64,000 bases of DNA, taken from Polytrichum commune (Eukaryota; Streptophyta; Polytrichopsida; Polytrichales; Polytrichaceae). Shown piece after piece: positions 7,539 to 58,379 of the stretch. Position 1 is the stretch's first letter, and each line of letters starts with the position of its first letter. The stretch is from NCBI GenBank assembly GCA_950295325.1, contig OX485806.1, forward strand, positions 27,092,001 to 27,156,000, in the 5' to 3' direction. Both the position numbers and the translations under genes were made by a program. The notes beneath the pieces are model-generated. The model was not told the DNA's origin. It searched no databases and was given only the letters and a program-made list of their open reading frames with translations.

Positions 7539-8129
7539 CCTGGGTACGCAACTCCCATATTATACGCAGGGGGCATCGTACTTAAAACGGCTTAGAGGAC
7601 AGCTTTTGTAAAAATTATATCAAATTATATCAAATTAAAATGATCAAAAAGTTGGGTGAAGACCAAATTAAATAAAATGAGATGAAAAAAAAGTTGGGTG
7701 AAGACCAAATTAAATAAAATGAGATGAAAAAAAAGTTGGGTAAAGACCAAATTAAATAAAATGAGATGAAAAAAAAATTGGGTTGCATATTTATTAAGCC
7801 TCCCATTAAAATTATAAGCCACGAATAGTTGCCTCCCATTAAAATTATAATTCATTCACAATGTTAAAATTTTATTAAAAAGTCCAAAAAGTTGGGTAGT
7901 TTGACCTATGGTACCTGTATTAAAAAAAATCATATAATTAGGTTTTAAATGCAATTATATGCTTCAAAATATATTCATTTCCTATATATAATTACATTTT
8001 TGGATTCCTTGTTAGAAGGGCTACAAGGGTTTCCTACATTAAAACAAATTGTATCACTCAATATTGGACTAAAACGCATTATAAGTGATTATAATCATGA
8101 CCATATAATACGGGAGTTGCGTACCCGGG
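7539..8129. mobile_element. hAT-like MITE T, copy 1
   Basis: A 591-bp element with about 25-bp terminal inverted repeats (left CCTGGGTACGCAACTCCC, right end complementary to CCCGGGTACGCAACTCCC). A perfect 8-bp target duplication, GGGACATG, lies at 7531-7538 and 8130-8137, the size made by hAT transposases. It contains a 42-bp minisatellite (units starting at 7651, 7693 and 7735, 'gttgggtgaagacc...') and AT-rich sequence, but no coding region. A nearly identical copy with its own 8-bp duplication is at 57,781-58,379. Confidence 0.88.
7651..7776 (+). repeat. 42-bp minisatellite inside MITE T copy 1
   Basis: Three near-identical 42-bp units, each 'gttggg' plus 'aagaccaaattaaataaaat' plus an A-rich end. 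Reverse-strand translations give repetitive Phe/Leu-rich peptides; these are artefacts of the repeat and not genes. Confidence 0.85.
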
Positions 8130-14314: not shown

Positions 14315-16924
14315 ATGGACGACTTGGTATGGACCAACCACGTAACAAATAGCCAAGGGATACACAAAATCTCTATGTTAGTTGTCATATTGTGGGATAG
14401 ACTTGATAATTTCATTAAGGGTGAACAATATCATCCTCATTTCCCTTGCAAATACACCAAGGACATCATACATGTTACCTTGCCACACTCCTTGCGAACA
14501 CCTCGTGCGAACACTCTGACACTTGTACTCAGGTTTGTCCTACTACACACTCTAACATCCATTGTTCTTCGTATTGTGGTTGTCATTATATGCTCACCAA
14601 ACAAGTTCCAATAATATTGATTCTATCATGTAATCAATATTGGAAGTATATCGGATCATGAGGGTGCCACAGTTTGATGTCTTTCACATGTTTATGTTGT
14701 TCTTCAAACCCATGAACTCATATCTCTTCCATGTGTTTTGTTGTTGCACCTACATTTAAGTGTATGTACTTCATATACCATTATATGAAATTAAATATAT
14801 ATAAACAAGTATCATTCATCGTTCTCGTATACCATTGGACGCAACAATAAAAATATCACTAATTTCATTCTTTCATGGGCATTCTAGATAAAGGTTCAAC
14901 TTTGGCCCTAAAGATAAGACCGATATAGTTCCACATGATATGTAGACTCTCTTCAAATCCACCCAAAAAAAAAAGTAGAATATATTGCTGAAGGAAAAAT
15001 GAGAGGAGAAGGTCGTACCAAAATACGAGTCTTTCGTAGTGACCAAATCAACTTGTCCAAAGACATCGCGCATTGGCAAGACGTTATCAAGCAATTATGT
15101 GAAGCGAGGGCGCCGACGTTGTTTTGTGGCGAAAAAACATTATCTGCACAATTTCTTATGTTTGCTGATTTACGAAAATGCAGAGCACTTGAATGCCGTT
15201 GGAGAACATTGCCATGACACCATGGTCTATGGATTTAGATATGCACTCAGTGTTGGTCTATCAGAGGAAATGAAACTGAAAATTATTCAAATACATTCCT
15301 ATGAGTTACACTATGTCCAAATTATGCAACAACACACCAAAGAGGTTCAAGAATTGGCCATGTCCAACATATTCTTGTTGCCGTCGGATGTCATGAACAT
15401 TTGCCGTAAGAGGACGGAAGAGCTGTGGGAGAAACATCCTTCTTATCATGTTAGTGTCCGTATGTGGACAACTGAGACTCCAAACAACGTTTTCTACTAC
15501 CAAGAGCACTCCTTAAAGGACCTTAATTCCCAGACACAAGATAACTCACCTTTCACTCTAGGTATTCAAACTGGATGACAACTAGAGATGATGGCAAATT
15601 CCGGCCATAACTACGCTCTATCAATTGATGCCACATTTGGACCAGCCAAACAAGGATGAGTTATAAATCTATGTCCTTCATGCTCATATTTGTGTTATTC
15701 ACTCCCATTCACACTTGCTACTATCTTAAAATGTGTCATTATGTTATTTATTGTGTTTTCAATGTTATTCACCCCTATTCTAATCATGAAGCTTGTGTTT
15801 CCAATAGTACCCACTCTACACGGTTACGGTTTTCGACGATTGGAGAAATGCTATACATGTAGATTTCTTTACCATTTCGCAAACACGTGAACAAGACCTT
15901 TGCTCTCTTCCTTTGGCTTTACTCTAGAGGGTTCAAAGCATTAATTCTGACTGAAATTCATCTGTCAATATTGTTGACAATGTTCATGCAAAAATTAAGA
16001 TTAAGATAAGCTCAATTGTGTTTATTCTTCGTGGAGACATTTATGTCCTTCAGTATGAGACAACAATCCTTCAACGTGATACAACCAATCTTTTGTGTAA
16101 GATAACGAATTTTCAAGCAGTTCTTCAATTCTTGTCCTCCATTTAATTTCTTCTTATGTTGTGTGGTACATGCGCAGCATGGTGTTGCCTGATGCCAGAA
16201 AAAATTGTGCTTATGGCATGTCAAGAAGGCATGGACAGAGAATAGAGTGGAAAAAATAACTAGCGTTAGAGAACATACCATTGATCTTTAGATGCTTAGT
16301 GATATCATGCACAAAAAATGATGTGATGTTGACGATGATCTTGTCAATTGGACTCTTGCGCAACTCGACATGATATCAAGCACTCATCCGAAAGCAACTA
16401 CGTTCATGAGATACATGAATGACGTTTGGCAAGCCAAGATACCAACGTGGTGTGTTGAAGCCCGACAGATAGCACATGCAAGACCAAATACAAATGCAAC
16501 CATTAAATCCTACCATTCCAACTTGAAGAACGTTTTAAACTCATCCAAAGAGAGGTTTGTGAGTAGGGGTGTGACTGGCTTATTTATCATCTAATGGGTG
16601 ACGTTTTGACTTACTAGTGGTATAGTGTCCAATACAAAGCATTTGGATTCATACACAACAAGAAACATGAGGGTATTTTTTGTGTCAACAATTATAAGAG
16701 CCAACGCCAAACCTGACACGAAAGGTTTGATTTGTATGGACGAAAATGTTGCATATGTTGGATCTATAAACAATCGCCCGAAAGTGTGGACCATCCAATC
16801 TTCGGACTATGAATGGGCACAATGTGACTACCCCAATGCCAAAGAGGGCATGATTTGCAAACATACCATTCAAGTCTTCAAGTGGACATATGCGGGCAAT
16901 CAAATTCAAGTGATAGAGGATTAG
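14315..16924 (+). pseudogene. MULE transposase pseudogene (copy 2)
   Basis: Homologous to the intact transposase of the 12.4-kb element from its residue 47 onward. Recognisable exons are 14,315-14,533 (opens MDDLVWTNHV), about 14,888-15,655 (ends at the first catalytic block ALSIDATFGP), about 15,808-16,012 (second Asp block, IVDNVHAKI) and about 16,188-16,924. The coding frame is broken by several stops and frameshifts. Two key sites are also lost: the third acidic residue is Lys (NATIKSYH against NVAIESYH in the intact copy), and the SWIM finger reads CDYPNAKEGMICKH, so its second Cys is Tyr. It cannot encode an active enzyme. Confidence 0.85.
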
Positions 16925-32016: not shown

Positions 32017-32141
32017 AGATAGATGGGTCCTAAAGCCCCCCCCCCCCATTAACCACTTTGCCTAGGATAAGAAACACATGACTGGTACAAGATGGTTAGC
32101 AAATCCAAATTGAGGCCATAGTTGGTTTCCTCATAATATTT
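32017..32141 (+). repeat. Dispersed repeat R, copy 8, left half
   Basis: The left part of an R copy ('agatgggtcctaaagcc', a run of C, 'gtacaagatggttagcaaat', 'ttgaggccatag'). It is split by the 12.4-kb MULE and continues at 44,577-44,829. Its last 9 bases (32,133-32,141) are the MULE target duplication. Confidence 0.8.
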
Positions 32142-32177
32142 GGAGGACGCTAAACACCCCCCCACGAACTTCTAGGG
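32142..32177 (+). repeat. MULE left terminal inverted repeat
   Basis: About 36 bp from GGAGGACGC to CTTCTAGGG. A further subterminal 'tgctgcccg' (32,209-32,218) is shared with the other MULE ends, beyond the well-conserved part. Confidence 0.95.
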
Positions 32178-32329
32178 GGCACCTGGAAGGAAATTCCAGT
32201 GCTGCCCGTCGCGGGGGGTACCGGTCGAACCGGTCGTCACGGACGGACGTTGCGAACCCCGGTATACCGTACTAGTTTTGTATGTGGTACTCGTACGTAC
32301 TCCCATAAGTATCGGTAGGACGTACGAAT

Positions 32330-32880
32330 ACTAGCAGAACATGTAAGGGATATGTTTAGCAGAACATGAGGATATACTTTAGCAGAACTGTAGGGGGTAT
32401 ATTTGCAGAACTCCAAGGTGTATTTGAGCAGAACTGCAGGGGGTATTTTTGCAGAACTCCAAGGGGTAACTTAGCATAACTGCAGGGGGTATATTTGCAG
32501 AACTCCAAGGTGTATTTGAGCAGAACTGCAGGGGGTATTTTTGCAGAACTCCAAGGGGTAACTTAGCATAACTGCAGGGGGTATATTTGCAGAACTCCAA
32601 GGTGTATTTGAGCAGAACTGCAGGGGGTATTTTTGCAGAACTCCAAGGGGTAAGTTAGCAGAACTGCAGGGGGTATGTTTGCAGAACTCCAAGGGGTATT
32701 TTTGCAGAACTACAAGGGATATTTTTGCAGAACTACAAGGGGTAATTTAGCAAAACTGCAGGGGTCATGGTAGCAGAACTGCAAGGGGTATGGTAGCGTC
32801 CTCCCATTGAAATCCTTGAATATTTGCAGGACTCCAGGGGGTATTTTGGCAGAACTTTAATGAGTAATATTAAGTATAAC
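32330..32880 (+). repeat. MULE array A: GCAGAACT units (about 23 bp, 92-bp higher order)
   Basis: Repeated units of the type 'gcagaactccaaggggtatt' and 'gcagaactgcagggggtatt'. Four units form a 92-bp higher-order repeat ('atatttgcagaactcc' at 32,399, 32,491 and 32,583). Single degenerate units continue to about 32,880. Reverse-strand ORFs here are artefacts of the repeat. Confidence 0.92.
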
Positions 32881-33159
32881 ACCAAGGGGTGTTTGCCTTG
32901 AACATGAAGTGGTCTTTTGGCACAACATCAATGGGTCATTTAAGCGGAACACACATATACGTAGAACACACATGTGTTTTACGTATATCGTGGACAACCT
33001 ATATGGTTTCACATACACATTTATGCCTCCTATCGCGACCATTGACATGCAGCTCACGAATGCTTCACTACTTCTAGGCCTTTCTACACCGCATGTTCTG
33101 CATATCCATTTCTCCACCTCCAGTTCTGCACAACAATATCTAGACAGGCAGTTCTTCTG

Positions 33160-33536
33160 AGCCAGTTCTAACTAGTCAGATCTTCTTAGCTAGTTCAACA
33201 TAGATCCTTCTAATTAGTCAGTTCTGGTAATCTAGTTCTGCACAGACCCTTCTAACTAGTCAGTTCTGCTAAGCTAGTTCTGCACAGACCCTTCTAACTA
33301 GTCAGTTCTGCGTAGCCAGTTCTGTACATACCCTTATAACTAGTCAGTTCTGCTCAGCTAGTTCTGCACAGACCCTTCTAACTAGTCAGTTTTGCGTAGC
33401 CAGTTCTGCACATACTCTTATAACTAGTCAGTTCTGCTAATCTAGTTCTGCACAGACCCTTCTAACTAGTCAGTTCTGCGTAGCCAGTTCTGCACATACC
33501 CTTATAACTAGTCAGTTCTGCTAAGCTAGTTCTACG
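33160..33536 (+). repeat. MULE array B: 42-bp units with AGTTCTGC
   Basis: About nine 42-bp units ('cagacccttctaactagtca' plus 'gttctgctaagctagttctg'), for example starting at 33,241, 33,283 and 33,325. Each unit carries two AGTTCTGC words, the reverse complement of the GCAGAACT core of array A. Apart from that core the two arrays are unrelated. Confidence 0.92.
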
Positions 33537-34579
33537 CATGGTGGATCCAACTATCATTACGATTTGATTGCATTCGAGTGAAACGACCTTTAGGGTTCAT
33601 GTCTACGTCGTGGAGATGTCGTCAGGAGCTTCAATCGCTTGCAGCAGGTTCATTTACGCATTTTTTCATTCCCAGGTGTGTGAGGCGAGGATTCGATTAG
33701 GTTTGAGCGATTGTTGAGTGCATGGTGTGCGAATGCGCGCGGTTTCGAAGCGCTTTGAGTGTGTTTCGTAGAGGTGTAAGTGTGAATCGAAGAGTTTTGA
33801 ATGGCATTTGAGTGGCATTTGAGTTTTGAGTGGCACTTGAGTGTGGACGCAGTAAATGCTTGAAGCAGTTACAATTGTTTCCGCGCGGTTTGTTTATGGC
33901 CGTCTTCAGAGATTCTTGAAGCACTTTTAGGGTCTCGCTGCAGCAGGTTTTCGTTCTTGCACTGTGTTTTTGTTGGGTTGAGGGCGTTTTTTGTAGTTGC
34001 ATTGTGGTGGCGAAGATACACTGCGTAGAAACTGTTAGGGTTTGCAGTATAGTGTTGAGTGCGGATGATTGTTGTATAGCATCGTAGTGGTTCCATTGCA
34101 TTGTACAATTTAACACACCATAAATGCGCTCGCATTGAATTCACACACTCATTGAGTAGGGTTTATTGAGTGCATTCTCAGTTTTGAGTGTAGTTTTGAA
34201 TGTTTTTTGGGTACAATTCCTACGTAATACCTCCACAAATAAATGGCGTCGACCGAAGGGAAAGCGGCACCAAAATCTGCTAGGAATAAATCAGGTGCGA
34301 AACTCCTGCCAGAGGCGCTTGCAGTGGATTTGCACGTGCTGGAGGACGAAGACATGATTAGGTCTTTGGGGAGGGAAAAATTCGTCGACTTGTGTATACA
34401 TGGTGACCAAGGATTTTAAGAAGGGGTAAGCGCCTTCACATACATTCCCTTATTGTTTATGTTTATTATCCTATTTTCTGTGTTTTGAAATTCGCATAGA
34501 GAACTGTCTATCTACTCCTGCTCCTTCGCAAATGAGCTACTCTCAACGCCTGAATATGTCATTGTGCACAGCCACTACG

Positions 34580-34622
<43 letters not shown>
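34580..34622 (+). repeat. (TTG)n microsatellite in intron 1 of the MULE ULP1-linked gene
   Basis: About 14 TTG units inside the first intron. The poly-Leu ORF over it is not a gene. Confidence 0.9.
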
Positions 34623-35754
34623 GCTCAATTTTTTGGTGCACACATCCACATTGTCAGTCACCCACAGGCCCACCCACATACACTCCCATGTTCTGTATTA
34701 TGCACACTTGAAGACAATTCTGCATTTTATTATTTATTTTTCTTTCATTGTTGTTTTCTCTAACATCGGTCTTAGTGTATTGCTGCTTCAACACAACCAT
34801 CGTTATGCTATTGGTATAAGTGTGGTCAGAATGTGAATTTATGCCATGTTGTTTGTGCTAGTATATGTTTGCATATTGCTTCCAGCGTGCGTAACTCATA
34901 TTGGTATATTCTGCATTGATAATGTTTTGTAGGTGTTCGGTGGCCCTAAAGGAACTTCCAAGATTTTTCGCTATACGATGAAACAAAACAGGAAGAACTG
35001 TGCAGCAATCTACACCAAGGAAGAGTATGAAGAACTGGTGCTAGAGGCATATTGGCAGGCCAAGAACACGCACAAACAGGCTAACAACAGGTACAAGTTT
35101 ATTTGCATTTACTGTAGGGAGTCCGGGAAAGATAAGAACACGATTTCCCACCACAGGATGTTCAACATGTGCAAGAGCTACAAGGGGGCGAAACCATTGA
35201 AGATGTATCCTACTTGGGAGCCAAGCAATCACGGAGAGAAGCACAGGATTGCTGTCAAGTACGGGAAGGCGTCGTCCCCAAATGCTGCACACTCCCAGTC
35301 ACCATCAGCATTCCCTCCGCCTTTGGATTTAGGGGGGGCTAGTGGTTATGCGTTGGTCCCTGTCCCTGAGTTGGCCGCTGTCCCTGCAGAACAGGGTACA
35401 TGATCAAGAAAACGCAAGCTACCAACGAGGACGGCGGCTCCTCCTGTGGCTGGTAGAACACGGACCCCGTTGGTTGAAGTTCTCCCATCATCACCACCTC
35501 GGAAGGCGTACAACCTGGCAGTGAAGGCAGCGCCGAAAGTCCCAAAGTCACCCACATGCTCAAGGCAACGAACGAAGACAGATAAGCCAGCCCGAAGAAC
35601 TATCATCGTATCCAGCGAAGAGGAACTAACTTCGGGCAATTCGCGTAGCGAGTCCGATTCAAGTTCTGCAGATGGAACGCCAAATTCGCAGCAGAGTGGA
35701 GACAAGGACTTCCGTGTTGTCAAGCACGACCGTCTGCAGGCAACACCTGCGAAT

Positions 35755-35898
35755 GCAGAACAGGGCCAGCCACCGGTTGCAGAACAGGGCCAGACACCGG
35801 TTGCAGAACTGCGACAGCCACCTGTTCCAGAACTGCGCCAGACTCCGGTTGCGGAACGAGGCCAGCCACCGGTTGCAGAACTGCGCCAACCAGAGGCT
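35755..35898 (+). repeat. In-frame 24-bp coding repeat built on GCAGAAC
   Basis: Six 24-bp units encode 8-residue repeats (AEQGQPPV type). Five of the six begin with GC(A/G)GAAC (the fourth begins CCAGAAC), the same word that dominates the non-coding arrays of the element. The unit is in frame with exon 2 of the ULP1-linked gene. Confidence 0.85.
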
Positions 35899-38457
35899 AA
35901 AGCATACAACTACATTGGTGCTCTCACTGCGCATGAAGGTATTGTCCTTCGCAGTCCTCATAGTGCCAATATGCAGCATCCAAATTACGTCCACGAAATT
36001 GTGCTGGAGTCCGAATCTCCGCCGGAGGAACAACCTAAGGTTCATCCTGAACCCCTCCAACATAAACCCCTCACGCGAGAGGAGTGTGAGAAACAAGCGT
36101 ACGAGGAGGCAACAGAAATTTATAGTGTGCAGAATCAGGTTGGGCCCCCTCCGGAGCCAAGACTAGTGAACGGCCTGTACATCCTCATCATGCAGACCGA
36201 GGAGCCGTGGGTGCCCAAACACCTATTAGAGGACCCGGACGGCTGCATGCAATTCCTCAAGAAACAATTGGACGATGGCACAATTGGAGCCCGTATGTGG
36301 AGCGCATTCGGGCAGTGGTACTTGTATGGCAACGCTAAGGTAATTTGTTCTACTATCACTTTATACAGTTCTGCAGTTATGTAGTCCTACAATGTTATCG
36401 TGTTCTGCATGATCTGGTTGTTGGTTTGTTGTTGTGTTCTTATAGTGTTTAGGGATTTATTGGTATTGTGTGAAGCCACTTATAAACCATGTTTTATTTT
36501 GCAGTGGATGCAGGCAGACAAAACTGGTGAAGACAGCGAATGGGTCGAGAAGGTGAAGGCACAGGTCAGGGTGTTTAAGCAGAACACGGAGATGTGCGTG
36601 TATGAGGAGCTCAAGGAGTTGAGGAGCTACATACTTCACAAGCTAGCAGTGAAGGAGTGGGAGGAGAAGGTCGTAGCCGCAAGGGTGAACTTCGAGGGAT
36701 TGCGGAGGAAGTACGTCGACAGGGCGTTAGAAGATTATGACCGCTCGAACAAGGAGAAGGAGGAGGAAACCAAGAGGAAGTGGTCTCCCCTGTACCAACT
36801 TCTAAGGAAGTGGCCTCACCCTAACTTTAGGGCTGCTCCATGGGACCATACGCAGTCGGAGTGGCGGGACATGTCTGCTATTCTGCTGCATAACACAAGA
36901 ATTGAGCCCCCGTCTCTTGAAGGCGAATGCCCACATATCTTGAGGGCGTTGTTGTATTTGGTGAGGAGTCTGGAGGGCTTCAATCGTCCACTCTCTCACC
37001 CAACGAGAGGTCTGCATGGCGAATATATCATGGAGCTTGCTCGACATCCGCAGCACTCAGCCGCATTGAGGAGAATTGCGACCAACTTGTCTACGGCTGG
37101 GTGGAGCACCTTCCCTGGCATCCACAATGCAGCAGAACACATGGACAAATTGTTCGAGGACGTTGCAGCACTGCTAGGATGCGACCCTTCAGTGCAAAAT
37201 ACAGTGGTTGGGAAGGTGGAGTCCTTCATCGGCAGGATCGCGCAGCGAGCCCTTGCAGACATGGTTCGTATGCATCATGCAGCAGAACTTGGGGACATGT
37301 GGTTCAACGCAGACATCGCGCCGCAGTGTCAACGGGATTGCGAAGAGGTAGGGACCTGACCCAATTCACAAACGTCCTTGGTTTGGTAGAACTTGGCTTG
37401 TAGAACTGGAATTGTAGAACATCGATTGTAGAACTGGGAACACCAAACTAAGTGAACGCTCTGCGACGCAGGTATTGTGTTCGGCAATGGTCTTCCGCGA
37501 AGACATTGACGTAGGCTCATGGACATTGGGCGACCTGCACACTAAGAGCCGCTGCGTGCAGTTGCGGGTGGAGGAGGTGGTACAGAGCCTGCATCATTTT
37601 AGGGCCACACAATTGCGATTGTTCAATTGTGGAATTGGAGTGGAGGAGGCAACAAACGACATTGCCCCAGACGTACACTGCACCAGGACGTTGCTGGGAA
37701 AGGAGGTGGTGATGCCAGTCGAGAAACCAAAGACAGCTATGGGGTTCGTGGCCGAGGTGAACGAAGCCATGACTCCGGACACCTTGGACGCAATACCCAT
37801 GCATTGCGACTTTGAGGGCGTCGAAGGCATCAGCACTCAGGATCTCTCACTAACGCAACTTTCAAAAGATTTGCAGAACACGACAGACAGGTTCGCGTCT
37901 TGTCCCACTTACTGACCGTCCTTTGTGTTCTGCAATTTGCATGTTCCTCCTGCACGTTAAGGTTTATCTCAAGGATCGTGGTTTTACAGGACACCGTCGC
38001 TCACGCTTGCAATAGGGCCTCCGGGTGACAGGACTATGGTGTCGCCTGCTCAGAAATTCAATTTTGACGACTGCAACCCCCTCCAGTTCTGCAGTCGACC
38101 AACCAATGGCCTCCGCCGACAGCTCGCCTGGCACTGCAGAACAATCGACCGAAACCGACACCCTCTTCAATGACGCATACCACGCGGTGAGTCACTTGGG
38201 TGAAGGTTCCTCCCCCCACAAGTACGTGTCCCCTTCGACTCCCCCCGCATGCGACCAAGTACCAGAGGAGGAGGACCACGTATCACCAATGAATGAAGAG
38301 TCTCCCATCCGAATTATGGACGACACACTGCGAAAGACCACACATAGAACTGATGGAAGGTAAATTATTTATTGCTTCTTTACTTCAGGTATAATTTCTT
38401 GGCGTGTTCTACATGGTTGTTGACAACGCCCCTGACACGATGACATGTGTTCTGCAG

Positions 38458-39112
38458 ACTTGAAGAACTCGTGGTCACCATCGTCGCTGAAGCAGGTGGG
38501 AAGAAAGTCAAAAGTTTTGAGTTTCAGTATCGTGGTGATACTTTGAGTCTGCAATGGAAAGAGGATTTGAAGCCAATGGTGCAACATCATGGAGAGATGA
38601 CTAACTACATGATGGAGTGGATTGCGGTGTGGCTGAATCCCCAGATAGAGAAATACGGATGTCATATCTGCAGTCCTTATCTTGGTCCACTACTAATGTC
38701 GCATGTGGATGAACTAAAGACTGAAACATTAGGGGTTTATGTAACGTTCATACACGACAAGTATGGTTCGCTTCCCTAACATGATACTAAAACCCTAATA
38801 GTTCCTTACACCTGCGGAAAACACTGGACAGTGTACGTAGTAGGAGAACATGGGTTCTTCCATATGGACTCGTTGGTAGACTCTAAACTCCATTCCGACA
38901 CCAAACTTTAGAAGAGACTCGCGAAGTTGTGGGCTGCATGGAGTGGCCACGACAGCGACGAAGGTCTTTGGAAGGCTATTAGCTCCTCGCATGAGTGGAT
39001 ACAAGCAAGAGTGCCCCAACAAAACTCGGGTTGGGCTTGCGGTTTCTACATGCTGAAGAACATAATGGAGTACACAAAGACCGTGAGAGATAGTTCCCAA
39101 TCATTGTGTGAG
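38458..39112 (+). other. ULP1/C48 protease domain exon
   Basis: This exon carries the complete papain-like catalytic set of ULP1 proteases: His in KHWTVYV, Asp in FHMDSL, the oxyanion Gln in VPQQNS and the nucleophile Cys in WACGFY, with Gln-to-Cys spacing of 6-7 as in the family. Two in-frame stops (TAA 38,777-38,779 and TAG 38,909-38,911) flank the His-Asp part, so no full domain can be made without readthrough or correction. Known members cleave SUMO precursors or conjugates. Confidence 0.85.
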
Positions 39113-40485
39113 GTAATTCGGACTTAAAACTCTCCAAAGACCAACATAAAGATAGAGCCTACTTATATAATTAGAAAGTCCTGCGTAGATGAAGTATAAT
39201 ACCTCCATAAGGGGGGGTCAACATGTTCTACAACCTATGTTCTGATGTTCGCCATGTTCTTGCAGGCGTTTGAGTTGAAGTATAGTGGGAGCGATGCTTT
39301 GCGTACAAGGAAGGTTGTCAGGAACGCATTGATTGACGTCATCGAGAAGGGACGAAAGAACAAGACCGAGTGGAACGTCAGAGTTGTGTTGAAGAGTCCA
39401 GAATGCCGAAAACCTAGCGGCAAACGTCATCGCAGAACAAGGTTTAAAGTGAGTCGGAAGCTAGTCGACAGCGGGTAGAGTGTAGTCGTAACATATGTAT
39501 CATGTTGTATCATGTTGTATAATGGAAGTGTAATAAAAATTACACTGTACAACTCCAGATAGTGTATAGTTGTGTAGAACAGAACACAGAACACATGATG
39601 AAGATCATGGTACACATGCTAGCACAAACAGGTCAAGATACAGAGGTTAGCATACAAAGGAGCCTGAAACACATAGCATTGAATGGTCAAAGACCACTTG
39701 TACTGCACTGAAAATGTGATACTTTTATATAAAGAATTTTAATTTTGGAGACATTCTGGCAGTTGTGAGGGGTGCATAGCTGTTACAATTTGGGGAGGAT
39801 GCTTGTCTGTTGGAGAGCTGATTAACATTGTTTCTTCGTGACTGCAGCTGGAAACAGGAGAGTTGGAGGACATCATGCACCACGATATTAGGTATGTCCC
39901 AACCATGCTATGACTCTCAAGTATTCTTCACTGTATGTATATAGAACATTATTAGGATCAACATTGTGTTTTGGGTACCATCATGATTGTGTTCTGTAGA
40001 ACATTGTCTGCCAATCTTGTTTATTAAGAACAACCTTATGATGGATCAGTTGGCGATGTTCTGTAGAAGTCCGGTATGTGTTCTACGTTAGTGTGGTATA
40101 CAGAACATATTTTGTAGAACACAGTGAACGTAGAACACCTACTGGTCTTCTACAGAATATCGCCAACTGATATATTATTACACACGTTCTATGAACATAA
40201 ACTTACACAAAGATCTTTGTCAATGATGTGGTTAGACGAGAGTTGGCGAGGAACTTTGACGGAGGAGAAGATGACTCTTTGGACGCGATGAGTGACTGGG
40301 AAAAACTTATGATATAAACTAAAATAACATGTAGAATTATATTGCACACATATTATGACATATAGTTTGATATAGCAGAACATAAGTACAATACATGCTA
40401 TAATTATTGTAAGTCGATAAACTCCCTATAAGAACTCCAGTGGGCATAACAATAACGATCCAAACAATGGCAGAGGGAAGGTGTA

Positions 40486-43400
40486 TTATTTGGAGCAGGA
40501 TAGTCTTCTCTTCGGCAACGGGTACTCCAGAAAACCTCGACGGCATTTTAAAGAGTTGTCCCCAGACCGCTCCAGGAACGAGGTCGTCATAGGAGACAGT
40601 GGTGTATGTGCAACACCTTGTGCTATGAGCTGGTTCTGCTTGCCCCTAATGTGCCTAAGGCCAGCAATCAAGTGATTTTGCAGAACAGGGTGTTGATCGG
40701 CCTTCAGAGCAAGGGAATTGTATAAGCCTTGCGCAATTGCGGCAGGAGCTGCATGTGAAGAACTCTCCTGGGAAAATGTAACCGCGTTGGGGTCAACATG
40801 TGTAAAATGAGCTGAGAACTGGGAGGGGTTCTCAGAATCAACAAACAGAGGCTCCACATGAGTTAGAGGGGTGTGTTCTGCATCTACATCCAACTGCAGA
40901 ACATTATCCTGCACCACAATTTCAACTTCGAAGGGGTTGCCCACGCTGTTTGGAACATGGATTTGAGTTGTTTGTTGCGAGAGCCTCGCGTACACATGCT
41001 TCATAGGAGTATCGCGTTGGGTTCCGTGTCTTGTACCTGCTTCACGAACTTTAGCACCATCCTCAATCCCAGGGTGGAGCATCTTGAAGACTTTAATGGT
41101 GTGCTTGCAAATCATGCCCTCATTGGCGACTGGGCAGTCGCATTGTGCCCATTCGGAGTTCGGACACTTGACGGTCCACACCTTCGGGCGGTTGTTCACA
41201 GACCCAATGTATGCAACATCTTCGTCCTCACAAATGAGGACGTTTGTGTCAGGTATGTCGTTTGCTCTTATAATTGCAGATGCAACAATACCTTCTTGCT
41301 TCCTGTTGCGTATGAATCCGAATGCCTTGCACTGTACACTGTACCAATAATGAGTCAAAACGTCCCCCGTCAGATGATATATAAGCCAATCTATGCGCCT
41401 ACCCACAAACCTCTCTTTGGCAAAGTTTAGAACACTCTTCAAGTTGCAGTGGTAAGACTCAATAGCAACGTTAGTGTTCTGTCCTGCATATGGCGTCCGT
41501 CGAGCTCCAACACACCACATTGGTGTCTTGGCTCGCCAAACCTCGTTCATGTATTTCATGAATGAAGTTGCCAATGGACGACTGTTTGATATCCTGTCCA
41601 ATTGGTAAAGGGCCCAGTCGACAGGATCATCGTCAACATTGCAACCCTTCCCGTACATTATATCACCAAGCATTTGTAGAACAGTGGTGCGTTCTGCAGC
41701 GTTGGAAATTTTCTTTACTGCATTCTTTGCCCATGCCTTTTTGACATGCCACAAGCACAGGAAGATTTTGGATTGGGGCCACACCATGCTGCAAAAATCA
41801 TAGAGCATATGAAGGTGTCAGATGGATGAGGTGGTCAAAGACGTACGTCACGACTTGACAATACAATTTAATGAATGCAGAACAAAAGGAAAAAAAACAA
41901 TCTTACCCCAGCGTATTAATTTCTGCTTGAGCATTGTCAACGATAATAGATGATGGATTCCAGTCTGAGTTGACTGTTTGGACCCTGTGATGCAGCGCTT
42001 GAAGAACTGGGCGGAGGTCTTGTTCACGTGTCCGCGAAATGACAAAGAAGGCCACAGGTATGCCATTCCTCCAATCGTCGAACACCATCACAGTGTAGAG
42101 TGGGTACTGTAGAAAACGTGGAACATAATTGTTACAACAGTGGTGAAACAATGTTTCATACAGATAGGATAACAAATTTACAATGGCAACAAGTAGTAGC
42201 AAGCGTCCCTATTATATCCATTGAAGGCCATGGAGAACATCTCACCCTAGTCTGGCTTGTGCCAAATGTCGCGTCAATGGAAAGAGCGCTGTTGTGACCG
42301 AACTTGGCCATCATTTCAAGTTGCCATTCAGTTTGTATGCCAATGGTGAAAGGTGAGTCGTCTTGTGTTTGAGAATTAAGGTCCATTAGCGAGTGTTCCT
42401 GGTAGTAGAACACGCTGTCTGGATTCTCAGCTGCCCACATACGGACGCTGATGGGGTCAGACGGGTGTTTCTCCCAAAGGTCTTCCGCCCTCTTACGGCA
42501 TATGTTCTTGATGTCCGATGGCAACAAGAAGGTGTCATGTGTGACCAAACCGTTGGAGAGTGCCAACTCCCTCACTTCTTTGGTGTGTTGTTGCATGATT
42601 TGGGCAGGGGATAACCCATAGGCATGCATTTCATCAATTTTAAATTTCATTTCCTCCAATACACCGGCACCGAGAGCATATCTGAAGCCACAGGTGATGG
42701 TGCCATGACAGTGTTCTCCAGCAGCATTCAGGTGTTCTGCATTTTCGTAAATGAGCAAACACAATGAGTGGTCCAGGTAGGGCTTCTTCGCAACAAAACA
42801 ACGTTGGCACCCTCTCTTCACCGAATAGCTTGCTACTGTCTTGCCAATGCGCATGGCCTTGGGACGGATTGATGTGGTTACTGGGAAGGAATCATATTCA
42901 GGTACTACCTTCTTGCCACGCTTTTTCTTGTGCACCATTGCCTGTTTGTTTTTTTTTTGCGTGAATTTCAGTAGAGCTTGCATGTCATCTGGTACGATAT
43001 CACTCTTGTCTTCAGGGCCAAAGTTGCACCTGTACCTGCAATGTAACATGGATAACCAAATTTTGAGTGTACAATGAAATGCATATTTTAGCCATTTTCC
43101 TACCGAGCACATTATGCTAAACCCTAAACTGTAGAACATGAAATTTGTGTGGTTCCTATTTCAATGTAGGCAGTATGTCAAACCTCAGTACAATTGCCGG
43201 ACTGTGTGCACGAGGTGCTCGCAATGAGTGTGGCAAGTTAACACGGACTATGTTTTTGTTGAAAGTGCAGGGGAATTGAGGATGTTGTTGCTCCCCCTTT
43301 ATGAAATCCTCAAGTCTATCCCACAAAATGACGGCCAGCTTAGACGTTTTCTGTATCCCTTGGCCTTGAGAAACGTGGTTGGTCCACACCAAGTCATCCA

Positions 43401-43539
43401 TAGCAAATGCACCTGGAGGAGGATTCTGGACTCTCTCTCTCAGCGAAATTATACGATCAGCCTGCGTTGCACGAAATGTGGCAGGAGCAAGTACATGGAG
43501 GTCATCGTTGGACTCTACAATGTATGGAGGATGAGACAT
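40486..43539 (-). CDS. MULE transposase, apparently intact (882 aa)
   Basis: Cut-and-paste transposase of the Mutator superfamily that would bind and cleave the element ends in the nucleus. Four exons (minus strand): 43,539-43,184; 43,035-42,246; 42,106-41,907; 41,788-40,486. Junctions are GT-AG and the phases fit, with no internal stop. Candidate catalytic acids are D373 (LSIDATFGT), D439 (IIVDNAQAEI) and E559 (NVAIESYHCN), with the family CLWH block (460-463) between the second and third. A SWIM zinc finger C665-x-C667-x8-C676-x-H678 follows, then a long tail of about 200 residues ending in a basic PKRRLSCSK. The ATG at 43,539 is the first of the open frame; an upstream non-coding exon is possible. 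It ends 168 bp from the convergent ULP1-linked gene. The copy at 14.3 kb is a broken relative. The candidate catalytic residues and open frame make this the likely autonomous source. Confidence 0.92.
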
Positions 43540-43819
43540 ATTGCATGGAAAGTGCGTGCAATGAATGCAATTTCAGAACAAGCCCTAAACCGGCAGTTTG
43601 GAGTACATAAGAACTTCACATGCCCCTAAAGGTTTTCATTCCTCAAAATTCGATCCAACAATCTGTATATCGGATTGCAAAGAACTCAAAATCAGTAAAG
43701 CGAGGCCCAATGAATAAGTGACTCTCTACCCTCAACCACCACACGCAGAGCAAAGAACTGTGTGTCGTCGCTCCAACACCCTTAAACCCTAGATCCGCAA
43801 ATCACGCCAAATGCAGATC

Positions 43820-44370
43820 TGTAGAACTGTAGAACTGTTCTGCTATGTATATGCAGAATTGGGTAATTAGAACATATATTGTAAAAGATATGCTGAAGTG
43901 CTTGCATAGAACTGTTTATTCAGAAAATATTTTGTAGAAAGTGTGCAGATATGGTAATGTAGAACTGGAATTGTAGAAAATATATTGTGTGATATGTGCA
44001 GAACTGGTTTAGTATAAATTGATTTGTTCTACAAGTTTTGTCTAATATATGCAGAACTGCTTTTGTATGACTGGTTATGTATAACTATATCTTTAGGACT
44101 AGCTATGTATATATTGATTTGTAGAACTGGCTATGTGGAACTATATCTTTAGGACTAGCTATGTAGATCTTGATTTGTAGAACTGGGTATGTGGAACTAG
44201 ACATGCAGAACTGGGTATGTAGAACTGTATGTATAGAACTAGCTATGCAGAACTGTGTATGTAGAACTAGATATGCAGAACTGTGTATGTAGAACTAGCT
44301 ATGCAGAACTGGGTATGGAACTAGCTATGCATAACTGGGTATGTAGAACTAGCTATGCAGATATGTATAC
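43820..44370 (+). repeat. MULE array C: TG(C/T)AGAACT-rich right subterminal region
   Basis: Degenerate tandem units such as 'gtagaactagctatgcagaactgggtat' (about 28 bp, with longer variants). Almost every unit contains GCAGAACT or GTAGAACT. It lies between the transposase 5' end and the right terminal repeat, so it may overlap the transposase promoter. Confidence 0.88.
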
Positions 44371-44530
44371 GTGGTACGATATACGTGGTCCCGTATATAT
44401 TGAGATCTGGATCTGTTGCCTGGAATACGCTTTCACCGCGGACGTGTATGGACGTGAAAGTGGAGTTGACGGAGAAGGTTTTCGTTGCTGTCGTCACCTT
44501 GCGGGCAGCCCTGGCGCTGTCAGAGGGAAT

Positions 44531-44567
44531 CCCTAGAAGTTCGTGGGGGGGGTGTTTAGCGTCCTCC
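44531..44567 (-). repeat. MULE right terminal inverted repeat
   Basis: 37 bp, reverse complement of the left end apart from one extra C in the poly-C run. The inner flank 'gggcagccctggcgctgtca' holds the shared GCTGCCC block in inverted form. Confidence 0.95.
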
Positions 44568-44576
44568 ATAATATTT

Positions 44577-52139: not shown

Positions 52140-53230
52140 AACAATTAATAATAGTATTTACATATGAAAGAAATCACATATGCAAAGTAAAATGAAATGC
52201 AAAATAGGGTGGCCATTAAGGGCCATCCTTATGAAAGAAAAAAGAAGAACTAAATGTGTACATGTGTAAGAAATTACATATATAAAGCATAATAAATTAT
52301 TAAAATAATGGTTGTTAACAACCACCCTTATAGAAGCAAAAAAAAATGATGAACATGAGTGTTTATATGTAAAGAATAATACAAATCCAAAGCAAACAAA
52401 AATGCAAACAAGGGTGGTTGTTAACAACCAACCTTATGTAAAGACAACAAGAATGAAATATATCAATGTTTACATGTAGAATAAACTATATATGCAAAAG
52501 AAACATAAATGGAAAAAAAATTACCTTTAACGGCCACTTTTATCGATGAAGATCTTTTTTATGAAAGTGACTGTTTATATGTGGAAGAAACCACATATGC
52601 AAAACAGACTAAAATGAAAAAAACAGTGGCCGTTAGCGGCCACTCTTATGGAAGACAATTTTTTTGTGAAAGTGAGTGTTTATATATAGACAAACCACAT
52701 ATGCAAAAGAAACTAAAATAAAAAAATACAGTGGCCTTTAATGACCACCCTAATGGAAGACAATTCTTTTGTGTGAAATTAAGTGTTTATATATGGACAA
52801 AAACACATATACAAAACTATTTGAAATAAAAAATAATAATGGTTGTTAACAACCATCCTTATAAAAGACAACATTTTGTGTGAAAGTGAGTGTTTATGTG
52901 TGGGCAAAACCACATATACAAAACAAACTAAAATGAAAAAATGATGGCCTTTAATGGCCACGCTTATGGAAGACAACTATTTTTGTAAAAGTGAATGTTT
53001 ACATATGGAAGAAAGCACATATGCAAAACAAATTGAAATGAAAAAACAGTGGCCGTTAACGGCCACTCTCTTGGAAGAAAAGAAAATGATTCATATATAT
53101 GATTTTATTTCAAATAAATCATGTTGTTAAATGAAGATTGAAATCCAAGAAGGGGTGGCCATCAACGGCCGCCATAAACCAAAACACACTAATTGGAATC
53201 AAACAAGGGGGTGGCCATGAACGGCTACCC
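52140..53230 (+). repeat. About 105-bp tandem array with palindromic core
   Basis: About ten diverged units with cores near 52,208, 52,311, 52,413, 52,524, 52,626, 52,731, 52,840, 52,945, 53,049 and 53,155, plus a close extra one at 53,211. Each core is a palindrome of the type GTGGCCGTTAACGGCCAC or GGTTGTTAACAACC. Most units also have a second inverted pair, 'atatgtgg' then 'ccacatat', around 'aagaaa'. Spacing is 102-108 bp. No protein is encoded; ORFs crossing it repeat with the array. Confidence 0.88.
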
Positions 53231-57780: not shown

Positions 57781-58379
57781 CCCGGGTACGCAACTCCCAT
57801 ATTATACGCAGGGGGCATCGTACTTAAAACGGCTTAGAGGACGGCTTTTGTAAAAATTATATCAAATTATATCAAATTAAAATGATCAAAAAGTTGGGTG
57901 AAGACCAAATTAAATAAAATGAGATGAAAAAAAAGTTGGGTAAAGACCAAATTAAATAAAATGAGATGAAAAAAAAGTTGGGTAAAGACCAAATTAAATA
58001 AAATGAGATGAAAAAAAAGTTGGGTAAAGACCAAATTAAATAAATGAGATGAAAAAAAAGTTGGGTTGCATATTTATTAAGCCTCCCATTAAAATTATAA
58101 TTCATTCACAATGTTAAAATTCTATTAAAAAGTCCAAAAAGTTGGGTAGTTTGACCTATGGTACCTGTATTAAAAAAAATCATATAATTAGGTTTTTAAT
58201 GCAATTATATGCTTCAAAATATATTCATTTCCTATATATAATTACATTTTTGGATTCCTTGTTAGAAGGGCTACAAGGGTTTCCTACATTAAAACAAATT
58301 GTATCACTCAATATTGGACTAAAACACATTATAAGTTATTATAATCAGGACCATATAATACGGGAGTTGCATACCCGGG
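57781..58379. mobile_element. hAT-like MITE T, copy 2
   Basis: 599 bp. Ends CCCGGGTACGCAACTCCC and the complementary GGGAGTTGCATACCCGGG, with a perfect 8-bp target duplication GGTGGAAA at 57,773-57,780 and 58,380-58,387. It is nearly identical to copy 1 (7,539-8,129) but has four 42-bp units and lacks one internal segment. It interrupts a transposase reading frame. Removing it and one duplication joins VVET directly to YCDTSEWH in frame. Confidence 0.92.

Follow-up and report, generated by a model that had tools for sequence, protein, structure and literature searches.

A 64,000-nucleotide stretch of the genome of the moss Polytrichum commune (contig OX485806.1, positions 27,092,001 to 27,156,000 of the forward strand; hereafter the window) contained a Mutator-like element (MULE) in which one short word, GCAGAACT/AGTTCTGC, was densely repeated, and related elements in the same genome preferred different words of the same shape, TGNANNACA. 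The reading that we favor, with a probability of roughly 0.55, is that the word is a self-recognition site bound by a protein that the element itself encodes, most likely the product of its plus-strand gene, in an anti-silencing system similar to that of the VANC proteins of Arabidopsis. The element was delimited by terminal inverted repeats (TIRs) and a 9-bp target-site duplication (TSD), as follows (window coordinates):

32142-44567, whole MULE, 12,426 bp
32133-32141, left TSD ATAATATTT, 9 bp, perfect
32142-32177, plus strand, left TIR, 36 bp
44531-44567, minus strand, right TIR, 37 bp, with its C/G run one base longer
44568-44576, right TSD ATAATATTT, 9 bp, perfect

The element held 41 exact copies of the word, 25 forward and 16 reverse, all lying within 32382-44303, while the rest of the 64-kb window held none. 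Throughout the genome (407.8 Mb), GCAGAACT occurred 6078 times, compared with 5744 for the reversed control, and its density was 3.3/kb in the element against 0.015/kb in the genome, a difference of ca. 220-fold. Clustered pairs with words no more than 30 bases apart (GCAGAACTN{0,30}GCAGAACT) numbered 145 in the genome and 7 for the control; about four fifths of the 100 places listed fell in copies of the window element's own clade (clade A), the others being single sites and an unrelated-looking position class, namely a distinct repeat close to where contig C3 begins. A chance word or a genome-wide word was ruled out by these window and genome counts. The separate repeat on C3, near 75, 113, and 313 kb, consisted of GCAGAACTTAGCAAGAGCAGAACT units in both orientations.

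Within the element, the word was found in four tandem arrays and at scattered sites:

32332-32791, plus strand, array A, units of 23 bp with a higher order of 46/92 bp, word forward
32849, exact word just past array A
33122-33129, minus strand, exact word outside arrays
33166-33533, minus strand, array B, 42/84-bp units, word inverted
35662-35669, minus strand, exact word outside arrays
35754-35892, plus strand, fourth word array, 24-bp units, inside a coding block
36367-36374, minus strand, exact word outside arrays
37282-37289, plus strand, exact word outside arrays
38085-38092, minus strand, exact word outside arrays
43998-44005, plus strand, exact word outside arrays
44048-44361, plus strand, array C, 14/28/56-bp units, upstream of the transposase gene

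By eye, the units of the four arrays had only the word in common. The preliminary description of this DNA, which had reported arrays A, B, and C as different units around one core and the word as scarce elsewhere in the window, was borne out on both points, and the 24-bp array was added to it. Its further statement that the word recurs in introns and between the genes held for the occurrence but not as a preference, as the better core, which is the 7-mer GCAGAAC framed as TGCAGAACA/T, had 25 copies outside the arrays, of which 15 were in coding blocks.

With the main transposase exon as the query, 96 matches were found in the genome, and 22 elements were compared: the window element and 21 others (A2-A7, B1, B2, C1, D1, D2, E1, F1, G1, G2, H1, I1, J1, K1, M1, and N1), chosen by identity band and few stops rather than at random, with some of the stretches truncating the element. 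Transposase identity was 91-94% in A2-A6; A7 had lost the main transposase exon and did not match the protease blocks. All seven A copies, including that in the window, carried the word, with 29-41 exact 8-mers each, and their array copy numbers varied. On both checks that the preliminary description had set, genome-wide density and presence in related copies, the result was in its favor. A word pair at C1:35.67/35.68 Mb was rejected as a distant family copy, as it resembled an inverted duplication of a gene-like stretch in which no TIR was seen.

The words preferred by the different clades fitted the one frame TGNANNACA, also outside the arrays and on both strands, and differed at its three inner positions. 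Clade A used TGCAGAACA (7-mer GCAGAAC), clades C and E used TGAAGAACA (GAAGAAC), D/H and F/I/J/K/M used TGAAGGACA and TGAATGACA (GAAGGAC with GAATGAC), and clade G, comprising G1, G2, and N1, used TGCACTACA (GCACTAC). After masking of the arrays, 20 of the 22 elements had as their top dispersed 7-mer either the word of their clade or that word shifted by one base, the exceptions being B1 and H1. In the 13 elements that were each compared with 20 shuffles, the count of dispersed words always exceeded the shuffle maximum, barely so in B1 (14 vs. 13). Densities, given per 10 kb of array-masked noncoding DNA unless coding DNA is named, followed the clades: GCAGAAC reached 20.0 in A and 0.7 in F/I/J/K/M; GAAGAAC 13.9 in C, 20.7 in E, and 0.7 in F/I/J/K/M; GAAGGAC 21.7 in F/I/J/K/M, 15.3 in D/H, and 0 in A; and GCACTAC 19.0 in G and 0-0.5 in all others. 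For the six words, densities in the window outside the element were 0.2-2.3. The 7-mers were preceded by T (57-78%) and followed by A (54-90%) in all eight sets examined, which were drawn from elements other than B1, D2, and N1, and these flanks complete the nine-base frame TGNANNACA. The frame was drawn up after the words had been seen; its first form, GNNNRAC, failed on GCACTAC of the later-fetched G1, for which GNANNAC is post hoc, and G2 and N1 confirmed that word but were ca. 89-97% identical to G1 over long aligned stretches.

Neighboring clades had minor words in common and differed in their main words by single bases. Along the tree, GAAKGAC (D/H and F/I/J/K/M), GAAGAAC (E and C), and GCAGAAC (B and A) formed a series of single-base steps, which is given without direction, as the root was a midpoint drawing and G had a separate word. 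The intermediates mixed the words of their neighbors, with GAAGAAC, GAAGGAC, and GCAGAAC at 22, 11, and 10 in E and at 20, 8, and 12 in C. The preliminary suggestion that the element has its own self-recognition code gained support in this respect, because related clades preferred different words of the same shape. The same observation bears on the possibility that the element captured a binding site of a host transcription factor, the word, to drive its promoters. The placement of arrays A and B upstream of the plus-strand gene and of array C upstream of the transposase gene would suit such a site; however, the related clades preferred different words in one and the same host, and the words were spread over both genes and both strands, making a captured host site highly improbable.

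Persistence of the word under divergence was seen in F1, K1, and M1, which kept their common word at a dS of ca. 0.6-0.8 (T4 and P4), where we estimate that fewer than 1% of unselected 7-mers would be intact (dS ca. 0.7). The word columns were better kept than the other columns in array A (0.958 vs. 0.794, 152 units) and array C (0.866 vs. 0.712, 136 half-units), and also in the 23-bp arrays of M1 and B2, while in the 24-bp array of B2 they were not clearly better kept. The clearest homologous site, column 942 of transposase block T4, read GCAGAAC in A, GAAGAAC in C, and GAAGGAC in D and H. Passive growth, in which tandem slippage and gene conversion spread a functionless chance word, would account for the varying array copy numbers and for those arrays (array B, the coding array, and the array of I1) whose word columns were not better kept than their surroundings. 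It would not be expected to yield four arrays in one element sharing only the word, nor words that remain the top 7-mers once arrays are masked and persist at the divergence seen in F1, K1, and M1, and we regard it as improbable.

Two genes were recognized in the element, and their blocks followed the same order in all 22 copies. The limits of the plus-strand gene are those of conserved coding blocks and not splice-site positions:

34243-39475, plus strand, plus-strand gene, collinear blocks conserved in related elements
34243-34416, 34933-36381, 36508-37356, 37418-37912, 38444-38776, 38777-39124, and 39200-39475, plus strand, its coding blocks
35104-35172, plus strand, C2HC-type finger (C-x2-C ... 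H-x5-C)
35401-35403, plus strand, in-frame stop, also in A6, the codon being open in the other five A copies
38777-39124, plus strand, Ulp1/C48-type protease core (KHW, DSL, and PQQ...CGF by eye; Pfam match on A3)
40489-43572, minus strand, MULE transposase gene in blocks 43159-43572, 42159-43160, 41906-42208, and 40489-41817 (Pfam match on A3)

The assignment to the MULEs was based on the transposase domain (PF10551 on copy A3, E=3.3e-6, 27.9 bits against a cut-off of 27.6) together with the TIRs and 9-bp TSD, which were present in the window element and several other copies. The plus-strand protein was ordered as a C2HC finger, a variable, peptide-repeat-bearing middle that holds the 24-bp array, a conserved block, and an Ulp1-type protease core, for which PF02902 (Ulp1/C48) matched copy A3 (E=1.3e-5, 25.6 bits against a cut-off of 20.7); the catalytic His, Asp, Gln, and Cys positions were placed by eye. 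The four residues of the finger were invariant in all 11 rows of the alignment, from which a stop-containing G1 row had been removed. Further in-frame stops at 38777 and 38909 brought the total in the window copy to three, while copy A3, of the blocks examined, had a stop only in the final one (39200-39475 in window numbering). Parts of the plus-strand gene were present in all 22 copies; G1, G2, and N1 matched only four of its blocks, and B1 only the later ones. Between F1, K1, and M1, pieces of this gene had a dN/dS of 0.06-0.34. The conserved block gave no Pfam match above the cut-off, profile searches of the PDB with the finger block and the conserved block gave nothing useful, and structure predictions of two window pieces made without an alignment (mean predicted local distance difference test scores of 40.5 and 40.6) were not used.

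The preliminary description had named either the C2HC-finger protein or the transposase as the reader of the word. A role for the transposase would make the word a subterminal binding site that helps assemble the transposition complex. Subterminal repeats, with a short word near both ends, are a feature of Ac/Ds and En/Spm; arrays near both ends of the present element and a plausible zinc cluster (by eye) at the N terminus of its transposase are consistent with this explanation. The TIRs, however, did not follow the word. Copies of A, B, D, E, F, H, I, K, and M had them, at both ends in ten copies, and none were established in C, J, and, of clade G, in G1. The TIRs of A and F/I/K/M were alike despite differing words, while those of D/H and F differed more despite the same words. 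That TIR and word might be one site was likewise rejected, as the TIRs start with GGMGGAC (GGCAGAC/GGTAGAC in D and H), loosely like the words, without following that of the clade. The presence of words throughout the body and the coding blocks also speaks against a transposase site.

Short elements pointed the same way. The TIR pattern had 227 matches in the genome and 0 in the control, and among the 100 of these matches listed, at least 18 opposed pairs lay 1.0-1.45 kb apart. In two fetched elements of 1.28 kb (L045 and L046), the ends matched the A TIR over 41-42 bases and the 9-bp TSDs were perfect, yet neither contained GCAGAAC, each having two copies of GAATGAC; two elements with related TIRs (L048 and L049) contained neither GCAGAAC nor GCAGGAC. 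The occurrence of A-type TIRs on wordless short elements indicated that such TIRs seem to be enough for mobilization and that the word has another use. Because the TIRs do not follow the word and the short elements lack it, the word is probably not the transposase's essential site, and the transposase-site explanation as a whole is rather unlikely. These four short elements, of ca. 1.3-1.9 kb, had little in common with the long copies beyond their ends (blastn), and L048 had nothing. A 2.6-kb foldback (L047, C1:35317100-35319900), whose arms measured several hundred bases and whose ends resembled TIRs, contained 18 copies of GAAGGAC and had a TSD of eight of nine bases by eye; it had no blastn match to the long copies and could be a hitch-hiker on the F/M-type system; word runs resembling it stood at several other C1 sites among the matches listed.

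The plus-strand protein was favored as the reader, as its tree had mostly longer branches than that of the transposase (the block sets differ), a relation like that of VANC to VANA. We therefore consider the C2HC-finger/Ulp1 protein the likeliest reader. In the mechanism that we propose, an element-encoded DNA-binding protein would bind the dense copies of the word along the element, and the plus-strand protein, as the likeliest candidate, would act as VANC does in Arabidopsis and hold the chromatin of the element in an open state. The arrays upstream of both genes and the copies scattered through the body would together provide the density that sets the element apart from host DNA. Reader and word would drift together, which would explain why the clades differ at three positions within the frame.

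Several findings weigh against this proposal. Word preference was graded and not exclusive: GCAGAAC also reached 8-9 per 10 kb in the noncoding DNA of B, C, and E, with 5.4 for that of G, and GAAGAAC (9.7) exceeded GAAGGAC (7.3) in the coding DNA of D/H. Although noncoding DNA was ca. 2-3-fold richer in the word than coding DNA in D/H, F/I/J/K/M, and E, and 1.7-fold richer in G, in A, B, and C its density in coding DNA equaled or exceeded that in noncoding DNA. Arrays of the B clade held the off-frame words GTGGAACATG and GCACAACA, and B1, whose first four plus-strand blocks were unmatched, had little dispersed signal. One of three control stretches also slightly exceeded its own shuffles (16 vs. 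14), and clustered pairs of GAAGGAC numbered 669 against 151 in the control, with many sites outside known copies. The word was not clearly better kept than the remaining columns in array B (0.895/0.883), the coding array (0.867/0.883), or the I1 array (0.798/0.828). At homologous coding sites (A, C/E, D-M), six had each group's own word, one was swapped, and 11 had the same word in two groups; six vs. one is suggestive (one-sided p of ca. 0.06). The finger block was the most conserved part (dN/dS of ca. 0.06) rather than fast-evolving, which a specificity region might be, and among the A copies most dN/dS values lay at 0.2-1, some transposase pieces exceeding 1 on the basis of few changes. 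Both protein trees agreed in the main clades, and the word changes can therefore not be assigned to one protein; an assignment by tree conflict was rejected, as there was no clear conflict, the plus-strand tree leaving E1 unresolved and omitting B1. Finally, sequence profiles of DUF1985 and DUF287 found neither in the window, the A3 coding pieces, or 31 aligned pieces, and a whole-genome search for DUF1985 gave no matches, its control being equally silent. As these domains were undetected, the family was not placed in VANDAL/VANC.

Other repeats and relics were present nearby. A 191-aa open stretch at 15003-15578 (plus strand) resembled, by eye, the zinc-cluster block of the transposase and is a relic of a related element. 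A near-identical 42-bp tandem unit, with AAATTATATC repeats before it each time, occurred at 7646-7783 and 57888-58066, 50 kb apart, and a 105-bp tandem repeat at 52467-53078 contained the palindrome GGCCGTTAACGGCC.

Like Ac/Ds and En/Spm, the present element repeats its word near both ends; unlike them, it carries the word along its full length, and the word was missing from two short elements whose TIRs were of the A type. VANC targets show helical periodicity, whereas the spacings most often seen between words in A (23, 28, 46, and 24) were not multiples of a helical turn, although 42 is.

The VANC anti-silencing proteins belong to VANDAL21 and VANDAL6 of Arabidopsis (PMC5735166; PMC10398659). 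VANC21 is reported to bind YAGTATTAY, AGTTGTCC and AGTTGTAC are motifs of VANC6-affected regions, the arrays change fast, and VANC branches are longer than those of VANA (PMC5735166). Similarly, the moss system belongs to a MULE and combines a dense, family-specific word of 8-9 bases with tandem arrays of variable copy number, the word changes between related families (here in a graded manner, with B irregular), and the accessory gene, with its repeat-containing variable regions, shows lower conservation than the transposase. In contrast to VANDAL/VANC, the present family has clear 36-37-bp TIRs, although some VANDAL-clade members carry TIRs as well (PMC6446971). Its protein combines a C2HC finger with an Ulp1 core, its words are also dense in coding DNA (A, B, and C copies), and its host is a moss. 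In line with this, a PsaD exon of the host scored best against chains of moss photosystem I (6l35 and 7ksq), one long chain (9vfj) excepted. That the structure of VANC and its target DNA coevolve has been suggested on the basis of unpublished results (PMC12859917).

An Ulp1-type (C48) protease is also encoded by MULEs of the KIU/Kaonashi type in Arabidopsis and by others in melon, rice, and grapevine; Ulp1-carrying VANC genes have been described, and KIU VANDALs recognize motifs too (PMC13317346). The capture of Ulp1 was placed in non-TIR MULEs near the monocot/eudicot split, the Arabidopsis group being non-TIR (PMC13317346), whereas the present family has TIRs and a moss host. Somewhat short of even odds, we suggest that these elements represent a MULE lineage outside flowering plants with a diversifying code, in which the frame TGNANNACA acts as a three-position password and the reader is a finger-protease protein without detectable DUF1985/DUF287.

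The family bears on the questions of how a transposon can distinguish its own DNA from that of the host and how a recognition code can change yet remain functional. Five word states were found along one family in one genome, with E and C as intermediates that mix neighboring words, and stepwise change of the code therefore becomes directly testable. The published word-based cases found were from Arabidopsis and, by title, other eudicots, and no moss or bryophyte case was among the literature matches listed (open-licence papers, titles and abstract starts). If confirmed, the present case would extend such systems beyond eudicots, and would indicate either that the system was invented convergently or that anti-silencing based on words and involving Ulp1 proteins is much older than the eudicots.

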